From Mycolicibacterium sp. MU0053 (GTDB taxonomy: Bacteria > Actinomycetota > Actinomycetes > Mycobacteriales > Mycobacteriaceae), in contig NZ_OY726397.1 in NCBI RefSeq assembly GCF_963378095.1, forward strand, positions 4,154,001-4,218,000: 64,000 bases of DNA. Direction: 5' to 3'. Shown here piece after piece: positions 39,685 to 42,642 of this stretch. Below the pieces are notes generated by a model, which was not told the DNA's origin, ran no database searches, and saw only the letters and a program-made list of their open reading frames with translations. Both the position numbers and the translations under genes were made by a program. Position 1 is the first letter of the stretch; every line of letters starts with the position of its first letter.

Positions 39685-40560
39685 CTACTCCGTTGTGATT
39701 CCCAACTGCTCAGAGCGGGTTTTTGCGGCGGCCACCGCGTCGGCCACCGCCGCCCGCAAACCGCCGCGCTCGAGTTCGCGCAGACCCGCCGCGGTGGTCC
39801 CCGCCGGGGACGTCACAGTCGCGCGGAGCTGGGCCGCAGTGGTGTCCACACCGGCCGCCACGGCACCGTCGCCGGCGGGCCTACGGGCCTTGTCGAGGCC
39901 CTCCAGCAACATCGCCGCCGAGCCCGCCATGGTCTGCACCACCAGATCGGTGGCCACCGGCCGCGACAATCCCTGCGCCACGCCCGCGTCCACCAACGCC
40001 TCGACCATCAAGAAGAAATACGCCGGCCCGGAGCCGGAAACCGCCGTCACCGCGTCGAGCTGACTCTCGGCGACGGTGAGCACGCCGCCGACACAGTCGA
40101 ACAATTCCGAGACACCCTTGAGCTGTTCGGGGGTCACGAAGCGGCCCTTGGCCAACGCGCTGACGCCGGCGCCGACCAGTGCCGGCGCGTTGGGCATCAC
40201 CCGAACCACCGGGGACCCCGCCGGCAGCTTGGCTTCGAAGAATGCCGTCGTGACACCGGCGGCGACGCTGACGAAGACCTGCTCGGCGCTGTCGGCCTCG
40301 GCCTTGGCCGCGGCCTCGGCGACCTCATCGAGGATTTGCTCGACGTCGGAGGGCTTGACCGCGATCACCACGACGTTCGCGTGCTCGGCGGCATCGACCA
40401 CCGGCGCTACCTGCACCGAATACGTTTCCGAGAGGTGCTTGGCGCGGTCGGGCATCTTTTCCGAGACGACGAGGTCCTTGACCTGCCGGCCCGAGCGCAA
40501 CAGGCCCGCCAACAGGGCCTCACCCATACTGCCGCCACCGATGATCGCGATTCTGGCCAT
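39685..40560 (-). CDS. proC: Pyrroline-5-carboxylate reductase ProC
   Basis: A 291-residue NAD(P)H-dependent enzyme that makes proline from pyrroline-5-carboxylate. The Rossmann loop is IAIIGGGSMGEALLAGLLRS at the start, and the family signature is DAVTAVSGSGPAYFFLMVEA near residue 175, followed by QTMAGSAAMLLE. The ATG is at 40560. Length agrees with the family. Confidence 0.95.
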   Translation of the reverse strand: MARIAIIGGGSMGEALLAGLLRSGRQVKDLVVSEKMPDRAKHLSETYSVQVAPVVDAAEHANVVVIAVKPSDVEQILDEVAEAAAKAEADSAEQVFVSVAAGVTTAFFEAKLPAGSPVVRVMPNAPALVGAGVSALAKGRFVTPEQLKGVSELFDCVGGVLTVAESQLDAVTAVSGSGPAYFFLMVEALVDAGVAQGLSRPVATDLVVQTMAGSAAMLLEGLDKARRPAGDGAVAAGVDTTAAQLRATVTSPAGTTAAGLRELERGGLRAAVADAVAAAKTRSEQLGITTE

Positions 40561-40677
40561 GGACGCAAACCCTATATCCGCGGGTGCGGCGATTCGGGGA
40601 GGAGGCGGGGGGCCCGGCCCGTCGAGGCGGCATCCTGGGGCGTCGAAATTGCCGCCAAGGCGCCGAGATTGCCCTAC

Positions 40678-40747
40678 GGGCGAGAATCCGCGCGGATTTC
40701 CGCCGTCAGCTCAAGCTGGGCGCCGCAGGTTCAATCTCGAACGCCGG
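40678..40747. repeat. 70-bp direct repeat, copy A, with internal palindrome
   Basis: Very similar to 41700-41769 (copy B), same orientation. It contains the perfect palindrome AATCCGCGCGGATT at 40685-40698, a CAGCT-CA-AGCTG hairpin, and ends in TTCAATCTCGAACGCCGG. Two GAxATTGC motifs at 40644 and 40664, exactly 20 bp apart, precede it. The stop codon and last residues of the DUF559 gene lie inside this copy. Confidence 0.8.
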
Positions 40748-41580
40748 AGGTCGATCGCCGCGTTCACCCGTCGCAGCACGCCGGCGGACGAATCCTCCAT
40801 CACGACTCGGATCACGATCCAGCCGAGGCGTTCCAACATCTCCAGCCGCCGGATATCGCGCACGTACTGCTGCCGGTCGGTCCGGTGCTGATCGCCGTCG
40901 TATTCGACCGCGATCATCAGTTCGGGCCAGCCCATGTCCAACCGAGCGATCGGGTAGCCGGCTTCGTCGCGCACCTCGATCTGGGTCTGGGGTGCCGGCA
41001 GGCCGTTGCGGATCAACAGCAACCGCAACGAGGTCTCCTTGGGCGATTCGGACCCCGGGTCGACGAGCGCCAGCACGGCCTCGGCCCGCCGCAGCCCGCG
41101 CACGCCCGGATGCCGAGCCGCCAACCCTTCGACCTCGGTGACCGTCACGCCGGTGGCACGCAGCAGCGCGTCGAGGGCGGCGACCGCGCGGTCGACGGGT
41201 TCGGTCCGCGCGATGTCGAACGCGGTGCGCGCGCCACTCGTGACGGGCAACCGCCCGACAAACGCGACCTCACCGGCCGGCAGTTCATCGTGACGACATC
41301 GAATCCCCTTGGGAGGACGGGTATTCGGATGTACCAGTTCAATGATCGGAGCTGTCACCCAGTGCGCGCCCAGCAGATGCGAGGCCGCCAACCCGGCCAC
41401 CACCGCCGTGCGCCGCGACCAGAGCCAAGCGGCTGCGATCCTGACGTCGAGCGTCGGCGCCGTGGACTTCGCCAGGTAGACGTCCGGGAACACGCGCGCA
41501 AAACGCGTCCGGAGTTGATGGCGGTTCAGCACCCCGTCGGCAATCGCCCGGGATCCCACGAATGGCGCGGTCAAATCCAT
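40711..41580 (-). CDS. DUF559 (Vsr-like endonuclease fold) protein
   Basis: A 289-residue protein. The C-terminal part (about 200-280) is DUF559: SPKETSLRLLLIRNGLPAPQ, DMGWPELMIAVEYDGDQHRT and RDIRRLEMLERLGWIVIRVV, matching the PD-(D/E)XK-like Vsr fold with an acidic residue in VEYDGDQH. The N-terminal 190 residues form a helical region of the kind seen in abortive-infection AbiEi-like proteins. The final residues RSRLNLRRPA and the stop are encoded inside the 70-bp repeat. The ATG at 41580 is chosen, since upstream sequence is repeat motif. The gene is flanked by repeats, suggesting a mobile or domesticated cassette. DNA target unknown. Confidence 0.85.
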   Translation of the reverse strand: MDLTAPFVGSRAIADGVLNRHQLRTRFARVFPDVYLAKSTAPTLDVRIAAAWLWSRRTAVVAGLAASHLLGAHWVTAPIIELVHPNTRPPKGIRCRHDELPAGEVAFVGRLPVTSGARTAFDIARTEPVDRAVAALDALLRATGVTVTEVEGLAARHPGVRGLRRAEAVLALVDPGSESPKETSLRLLLIRNGLPAPQTQIEVRDEAGYPIARLDMGWPELMIAVEYDGDQHRTDRQQYVRDIRRLEMLERLGWIVIRVVMEDSSAGVLRRVNAAIDLRRSRLNLRRPA

Positions 41581-41699
41581 CGGCCCAGCGTGCCAATTCT
41601 CGACAATCGACGCCGACGGCCATCCACAGGCGCCCGTGCGTGCGCCGAGATTGCATCGTGGGCCTCCAGATTGCATTCCCGGCCCTGACATTGCCCCCA

Positions 41700-41769
41700 G
41701 GGCGGAAATCCGCGCGGATTTACGCCGTCAGCTCAAGCTGAGGGCCGTGAGTGCAATCTCGAACGCCGG
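41700..41769. repeat. 70-bp direct repeat, copy B, with internal palindrome
   Basis: Upstream copy, about 120 bp before the DUF559 ATG. It holds the perfect 16-bp palindrome AAATCCGCGCGGATTT at 41706-41721 and ends with TGCAATCTCGAACGCCGG. Three CxGATTGC-type motifs at 41646, 41666 and 41686, again 20 bp apart, precede it; TGCAATCTCG at 41752-41761 is the reverse complement of CGAGATTGCA at 41646. It lies between the DUF559 gene and the thioesterase gene end. Confidence 0.8.
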
Positions 41770-41796
41770 GGGCACCCACGCGCACCCGCCCAAACC

Positions 41797-42642
41797 TCAG
41801 GGCGCGGGCACCATCGCCAGCTGTCGGGTCTGCACCACGATGCGGCCCGTGCTGTCCACCACCAGGTGGTCCTCGTCGAACCAGTCCTGCCCAATCTGGG
41901 TGGTGGTGCACATGATTCGCAGCCAGCCATCGGCGGGCAGACCCCGCAGGTACGCGGTGAGCTGAATGGTGGGCGCCCACCCGGTGCGGCCCACCGCAAA
42001 CGTGACCGGCATCGAGATGTCGCCGCACATCAGCGCGAACAACACATCGGGTGCCTCCGTCCGCGGACGCACCCACAAGCGCGTCACGGGCGATTGTCCG
42101 GCCGGCACCGACCACAGACCGGCCATGTCGGGCCGAATGTCGCATCCCGCCGCGAGGTGATTGATCTCGGCCAACGGGTGTCCCGGTCCGATCGACTCGA
42201 TCTCCGCGGGCGGCTCGGGCGCCATCTCGGCCGGCACCGGGTTGGTCGACAGCAGCGGGGCCGCGTCGTGCTCGGGGGCGGCCAGCGTGACCGAGGTGCG
42301 CACCGCGACGCGCTTGCCCTGAACCAGTTCGACGTCGACGAGGCTCACGGTGCGGCCGCGCTTGCGGATCCGGGCGAGGACCCGCACCGGCCCCGGATCC
42401 GGCGCCGACAAGAAGCTCGCCGACACCGCGACCGGCGCCGGCCCCGCACCCGTGGGGTCGACCGCGAGCCCGGCCGCCTTGGCGCACAGCGCGAGCATCA
42501 CCCCGCCGTGGATCTTCGGCCCGATGGTCCAGTGCAGATTCAACTCCCCATCGAAGGCCACCGCGTCGGCGTCGCCGTCGGACTCCTCGGGGGCGGCCGG
42601 GTGCAGCGTCATGGCCCGGGCGAAGCTCGCGGGTCCCGTCAT
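41797..42642 (-). CDS. Thioesterase-like (double hotdog) protein
   Basis: A 281-residue protein with two hotdog-like halves: FDGELNLHWTIGPKIHGGVM in the first and LWVRPRTEAPDVLFALMCGD, QLTAYLRGLPADGWL in the second. The pattern matches acyl-CoA thioesterase family proteins such as the Rv0499-type gene. It probably hydrolyses an acyl-CoA, with unknown chain specificity. The ATG at 42642 overlaps the upstream stop by ATGA. Confidence 0.84.
   Translation of the reverse strand: MTGPASFARAMTLHPAAPEESDGDADAVAFDGELNLHWTIGPKIHGGVMLALCAKAAGLAVDPTGAGPAPVAVSASFLSAPDPGPVRVLARIRKRGRTVSLVDVELVQGKRVAVRTSVTLAAPEHDAAPLLSTNPVPAEMAPEPPAEIESIGPGHPLAEINHLAAGCDIRPDMAGLWSVPAGQSPVTRLWVRPRTEAPDVLFALMCGDISMPVTFAVGRTGWAPTIQLTAYLRGLPADGWLRIMCTTTQIGQDWFDEDHLVVDSTGRIVVQTRQLAMVPAP

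Follow-up and report, generated by a model that had tools for sequence, protein, structure and literature searches.

Organization of the focus locus

The stretch analysed here (the window) comprises 64,000 nucleotides of the 5.45-Mb, single-contig chromosome of Mycolicibacterium sp. MU0053, and carries a gene predicted to encode an AbiEi-like DNA-binding domain and a Vsr/EDxHD-like nuclease domain (the focus gene), which lies between two direct copies of a repeat (the focus element; Table 1). Specifically, the segments 40678-40747 and 41700-41769, described in an earlier note as 70-bp direct repeats, share 61 of 70 bases, and the wider stretches 40638-40750 and 41660-41772 are 79% alike at a spacing of 1022. 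The copies had been placed correctly in that note, but their real extent is 96 bp on the left and 116 bp on the right. The observed direct flank score is 62.5, whereas 2754 random placements within the window, made with comparable geometry, score 30 at most. The left element sits past the 3′ end of the gene and includes its stop codon (40711-40713), as previously noted, and the right element is located upstream of the likely start; the open frame itself reaches an ATG at 41691 (326 aa), within the right element.

Each copy contains a perfect GC-rich palindrome and is closed by an inverted motif, as the earlier note describes; this motif reads TGCAATCTCG on the right and TTCAATCTCG on the left. 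All five positions given there for motifs at 20-bp spacing are likewise right, but the exact CGAGATTGC occurs at only two of them; the variants CGAAATTGC at 40644, CCAGATTGC at 41666 and TGACATTGC at 41686 are each one or two bases off. The window has no Rfam match at gathering scores. An antisense open frame of 450 codons (40336-41688, plus strand) spans the focus gene and is probably a GC-rich artefact.

Table 1. Features at the focus locus, in window coordinates.
Feature	Position	Strand	Remarks
Focus gene, AbiEi-like DNA-binding domain and Vsr/EDxHD-like nuclease (predicted)	40711..41580	-	289 aa from ATG at 41580
Left element, 96 bp	40644..40739	+	forward motifs +0, +20; inverted motifs +68, +88
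Right element, 116 bp, three-unit form	41646..41761	+	forward motifs +0, +20, +40; inverted motif +108
Perfect palindrome AATCCGCGCGGATT, left element	40685..40698	.	not conserved in dispersed copies
Perfect palindrome AAATCCGCGCGGATTT, right element	41706..41721	.	
Motif CGAGATTGC, left element, second 20-bp unit	40664..40672	+	
Motif CGAGATTGC, right element, first 20-bp unit	41646..41654	+	
Pyrroline-5-carboxylate (P5C) reductase gene (proC)	39685..40560	-	one edge of relatives' empty site
Acyl-CoA thioesterase-like gene	41797..42642	-	second edge of relatives' empty site

Domain composition of the focus protein

A fold search assigns the N-terminal part of the focus protein to the AbiEi fold and its nuclease part to a Vsr-like fold, with the homing endonuclease I-Bth0305I, tied with NGO0050, as the closest solved nuclease domain. 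The EDxHD-type catalytic fold and its acidic and histidine residues are conserved. The DUF559 assignment proposed earlier stands just over the Pfam cut-off (E 3e-4, 20.9 bits; cut-off 20.6), but MTES_1575 gives the better E-value on the same C-terminal domain (E 7e-8), though its 32.9 bits remain below the cut-off of 38.2. NCBIfam vsr was not listed for the focus protein (five proteins scanned), and its cut-off is 97.85 bits, of which it reaches 14 on paralog L041 of the same genome. Additionally, at the limits applied, HUH/Y1 domains are absent from the Pfam matches of the focus protein and its ten paralogs; a single HTH_21 match, on L041, is below its cut-off. Judged from its sequence, the focus protein is an AbiEi-type winged-helix domain fused to a Vsr/EDxHD-type nuclease with a conserved active site. 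No DUF1814 (AbiEii) toxin gene lies directly beside the focus gene, whose immediate neighbours encode a P5C reductase and an acyl-CoA thioesterase.

Architecture of the focus element

Sixteen copies in the host genome, the two flanks and 14 dispersed ones, were laid out. The forward motif CGAGATTG stands at +0/+20 or +0/+20/+40 in these copies, and the inverted motif (at most two mismatches) at +88 in two-unit or +108 in three-unit copies in 15 of 16, a lattice without chance control in which the search pattern imposed the forward spacing on most copies and left the inverted positions free. Copy L229 consists of one arm only. The left flank and ten dispersed copies, all of the two-unit form, make up a gap-free alignment of 96 columns (11 sequences, mean column identity 74%); its conserved blocks are the motif and GGC(G), at a 20-bp period, and the conserved ends, read from the alignments, are CGAGATTGC and TTTCGG. 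No GTAG/CGTC tag was noticed at the aligned ends in a reading by eye, made without a motif search. The motif lattice is kept in the dispersed copies, and the GC-rich perfect palindrome is not.

A hairpin model for the focus element was rejected, with pairing in 71.7% of cells versus 72.5% in shuffles; the pairing does beat versions slid by 1-3 columns, as expected from motif symmetry alone. Most spacer positions have no pairing partner on the opposite arm, and shuffled versions pair at least as well, so that the focus element resembles a symmetric series of putative duplex binding sites rather than a hairpin. A GC-rich tandem repeat of the GGCGAGCGAAGCGCGCGC type (L231:1072-1211, near 4792350 of the host genome) immediately adjoins one focus-family element, between called-convergent genes.

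Genomic distribution of the focus repeat

The tandem pattern CGAGATTG-N12-CGAGATTG (at most one mismatch) gives 19 matches in the host genome, some of them the two arms of one element, and one or two matches in 13 of 147 other congeneric genomes, with 0 in the remainder; its backwards control gives 0 matches. The focus repeat is nearly private to its host genome. Eleven of the 14 dispersed sites overlap no called gene, and L234, L240 and L242 overlap a called frame. Where both neighbours are called, eight of 12 dispersed sites lie between convergent genes, compared with 22% (137 of 610) of the gaps measuring 20 bp or more in the relatives' loci.

Such a preference for convergent gaps would also suit bidirectional transcription terminators held by selection at gene ends, and one pattern match, L239, which was removed from the focus family, does resemble an ordinary terminator, being a hairpin that is also present in the closest relative, G012. 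However, scans of 40500-41900 and of the solitary copy L246 gave no U-tract terminator, and terminators do not need a gene-specific sequence shared by both sides of a gene, so that we regard this explanation as scarcely credible.

Absence of the unit at the focus site in relatives

A joined-flank query without the unit matched 148 of 148 genus genomes, and the inspection of empty sites, a check proposed in the earlier note, covered 29 loci, 28 of them with both flanks. The unit is absent at the focus site in 28 of 28 measurable relatives, in which the flanks are 13 to 134 bp apart; in G012, 13 bp separate them, and no focus-type element is present. The focus unit is an insertion relative to these relatives. 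No target-site duplication is visible at the empty sites, which are diverged.

When the 14 dispersed sites were compared with G012, four gave a single match across the junction. Eight sites were aligned: L237 and L240 are clean absences, L235 is absent in a messy alignment and L239 is the hairpin shared by both genomes; in G012 the L238 site holds unrelated sequence, the L236 site is diverged, the L230 site has no right-flank match, and the L234 site holds, by eye, an apparent solitary repeat of the type that brackets paralog L038. A different intergenic repeat, of the CAGGGCGAGCGAAGCGACGGGGG type, occupies the proC-thioesterase gap in two other species (L128:2063-2153, L133:2063-2161), from which it appears that this gap collects repeats.

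The insertion also bears on a homing-endonuclease-like explanation, in which the nuclease cuts palindromes that were spread by other means and the gene is copied beside them during repair. The closest solved nuclease domain favours it, I-Bth0305I being reported to act as a dimer whose target measures nearly 60 bp (PMC3943268, accessible part). On the other hand, the focus repeat is nearly confined to the gene-carrying genome, the empty site of the closest relative holds no such element, and full element copies rather than half-sites stand on both sides of the gene, which together leave homing very unlikely.

Paralogs with repeats of their own

The host genome carries 11 related genes in three sequence groups: group A (the focus gene and L032-L035), group B (L036-L038) and group C (L039-L041). 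Matching flanks bracket 10 of the 11, L032 being the one without; nine exceed the random-placement control, and L039 was added from a separate flank comparison. The repeat families mostly differ between bracketed paralogs.

Dispersed copies were seen for eight of the 10 bracketed paralogs. Apart from the 14 of the focus type, L038 has at least 36 copies besides its two flanks (40 of 116 candidates scored), L034 has three clear and two weak ones, L036 three and L033 one, and the three group C spellings jointly account for 26 palindromes, flanks counted; L035 and L037 have no dispersed copies among the matches listed. The L038-type repeat (GCGAGCG..GTCCCCGGCCGACACGCCG..GCACxCTCGC; L319, L321 and others), which is high-copy in the host genome, recurs in G012.

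Bracketing in relatives

The relatives tested were the best 80 of 556 from a scan of named genomes, of which 77 were testable. Matching flanks occur in 36 of these 77 at p<0.01, 15 of them at p<0.001, and 41 miss p<0.01, with p-values taken from 1900 control placements in the same loci. In a cross-locus control on own-genus loci, none of 28 and none of 29 reached p<0.05; since the flanks of orthologues raise its scores (99% points 215 and 211), this control was not regarded as suitable. In the 38 listed loci, the distance from the end of the left copy to the first conserved codons ranges from -17 to 128 bp, and in 36 of them no more than 60 bp separate the stop codon from the start of the right copy. 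Repeat similarity tracks protein identity (rho 0.32; reached by 0 of 500 permutations) over 787 non-syntenic pairs from 43 bracketed genes, 39 of relatives and four of the host. Of 25 loci retrieved from outside the genus, two were too short to test, and 12 of the other 23 have flanks that match at p<0.01. The protein family is present in 147 of 148 genus genomes (E ≤ 0.001) and in 61 members of a phylum-wide sample of 246 genomes (E ≤ 1e-30; the host and four congeneric genomes counted).

These positions also test whether the genes could be autoregulated regulators or defence genes, with the repeats as operators of the AbiEi domain, the dispersed copies as a regulon or its relics, and phage or other foreign DNA as target of the nuclease. 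For both AbiEi and Rv2827c, binding to inverted repeats of the protein's own promoter is reported (PMC7319586, accessible part), the N-terminal fold of the focus protein matches AbiEi, and the upstream copy has an operator-like position. However, an operator does not account for the second matching copy near the stop codon, most dispersed focus copies lie between convergent genes and not at promoters, and the toxin gene that accompanies AbiEi is not directly adjacent. An autoregulated regulator or defence gene as the whole explanation is therefore unlikely.

Comparison of 149 loci gave no recent jump of a whole unit between species; those most alike are syntenic, and the best pair without synteny reaches 74.5%. 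Carriage of units by plasmids or phages was considered and rejected, as the seven plasmid records and one phage record are all partial and below 60% identity. A screen for insertion polymorphism among close relatives yielded 122 candidates, the clearest being L049 versus L054, which are about 95% alike: the right element of L054 does not have the inner 71 bp found in L049 (L049:10916-10983), and the L054 gene has an in-frame stop. This difference fits decay or slippage equally as well as movement.

Palindromes of group C genes

The pattern TTTCGGYGYG-N15..40-CRCRCCGAAA occurs in 55 of 148 genomes, in up to 50 copies, the number in G081, with 0 matches in the control; the palindromes are nearly always about 45 bp long among the matches listed. 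They are present in 43 of 66 genomes with a group C gene (called at profile E ≤ 1e-60) versus 12 of 82 without, a Fisher p of 1.8e-10 that overstates independence because the genomes are related. A tally by hand took a single group C locus from each of 29 genomes and cut the raw flank score at 29: 13 of 15 loci with matching flanks lie in palindrome-bearing genomes, versus 4 of 14 without matching flanks (p 0.002). Unlike the focus element, the 45-bp palindromes fit a hairpin: the outer ten pairs are set by the search pattern, and among the inner ten, seven have changed on both sides, with 18 of 120 cells unpaired. Solitary group C palindromes occupy the proC site in G093 and G018. One host palindrome (L244:986-1030) falls within a long open frame by a simple gene rule, unlike four others examined.

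The repeats of all groups could in principle be similar to REP sequences or to miniature inverted-repeat transposable elements and be moved by an unrelated transposase, the nuclease genes being bystanders trapped between two copies. This is favoured by copies that stand alone, with no such gene next to them, by genomes that retain palindromes without a group C gene, and by the stem-loop sequence families reported earlier in mycobacteria. Such capture would not lead one to expect that different paralogs of one genome have different matching repeats, that repeat similarity follows protein similarity, or that bracketing recurs across genera, and we consider capture highly improbable.

A candidate repeat-dispersing module

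Taken together, these findings lead us to favour, with somewhat better than even confidence, a REPtron-like module in which an enzyme gene lies between copies of its own repeat and is accompanied by non-autonomous copies, mainly in intergenic regions. In such a module the focus protein would bind, cut and disperse its repeats. The fusion of an AbiEi domain, a type reported to bind inverted repeats (PMC7319586), to a fold like that of the dimeric I-Bth0305I, beside a symmetric element of 96 to 116 bp, suggests a nuclease that is assembled on the element and would cleave it in or close to the middle. Specifically, protein subunits would bind the 20-bp units, which are spaced two helical turns apart and point inward from both sides, so that the nuclease domains would meet near the dyad centre and could nick or cut the element there. 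Once cut, the element may be repaired or undergo strand transfer and so seed copies at new sites, and protein bound to the upstream copy would probably repress the gene as well.

Palindromes without the gene weigh against this interpretation. The 12 of 82 genomes that carry palindromes without a group C gene are a real exception; G012, G054, G040, G098, G043 and the incomplete G008 each hold 9 to 19 palindromes without that gene. The earlier note had named repeats widespread without the gene as grounds for refutation, and this is seen only in part: for the focus repeat, solitary copies exist in the very genome that carries the gene, while the 45-bp family shows the exception just given. The note's broader suggestion of a self-linked, structured unit, with a protein that may recognise the flanking element, fits the data well; for the movement that it also raised, no recent whole-unit jump between species was seen.

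We give about even chances to a wider proposal, namely that a second, independently evolved class of repeat-dispersing enzymes exists in actinobacteria, with several AbiEi-Vsr fusions per chromosome, each having private intergenic repeats that co-evolve with the protein and that one group recognises as arrays in duplex form and another as palindromes able to form hairpins. If this is true, part of the mycobacterial intergenic repeats would be explained, and natural protein/DNA pairs would be at hand for recognition tests; the ten bracketed paralogs of one genome would allow cross-reactivity to be tested directly.

Comparison with known systems

No description of such a system was found in the open-licence literature, an absence there that is no proof of novelty. 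Stem-loop sequence families have been reported in M. tuberculosis and M. leprae (PMC2267715, accessible part), and some of the present repeats may therefore already be catalogued.

Several known proteins resemble parts of the focus protein. The homing endonuclease I-Bth0305I shares its EDxHD catalytic fold and conserved acidic and histidine residues, but the focus nuclease is fused to an AbiEi-like domain, was not seen in an intron or intein, and has dispersed cognate repeats. AbiEi antitoxins (type IV AbiE; Rv2827c) are proteins of the same winged-helix type, whereas the focus gene has no directly adjacent DUF1814 toxin, adds a nuclease domain, and has repeats on both sides and dispersed. The MTES_1575/DUF559 Vsr-like nucleases correspond to its C-terminal domain by Pfam matches; PMC3710099 names the Vsr restriction-endonuclease fold and describes fusions of this domain to HEPN and other domains, and associated repeats go unmentioned in the accessible part of that source. 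The Vsr mismatch endonuclease shares the Vsr fold, although the NCBIfam vsr cut-off is not reached.

The closest likeness in layout is to REPtrons (tnpA_REP/RAYT with REP/REPIN), in which, according to the accessible parts of PMC8266576 and PMC3116915, an enzyme gene lies beside its cognate palindromes, genome-wide copies are mostly intergenic, gene presence correlates with copy number, and there is no evidence that the enzyme gene itself is mobile; how REP-like repeats spread is still described as unsettled even for this enzyme class (PMC8266576). Flanking by cognate repeats recurs here in 10 of 11 own genes and 36 of 77 relatives, and so do many mostly intergenic copies, with the L033, L034 and L036 types low-copy; repeat abundance correlates with the presence of the gene here too, and recent mobility of the enzyme gene has likewise left no sign. 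The differences are that the enzyme is an AbiEi winged-helix protein with a Vsr/EDxHD nuclease rather than an HUH enzyme, that the focus element is a 96- or 116-bp array of 20-bp units, and that ten bracketed paralogs share one genome. Given the different fold and the HUH domain missing from the scans, the focus system is not a member of the REPtrons; if our interpretation is true, the layout of a gene with its own repeats arose more than once, here with an unrelated class of nuclease.
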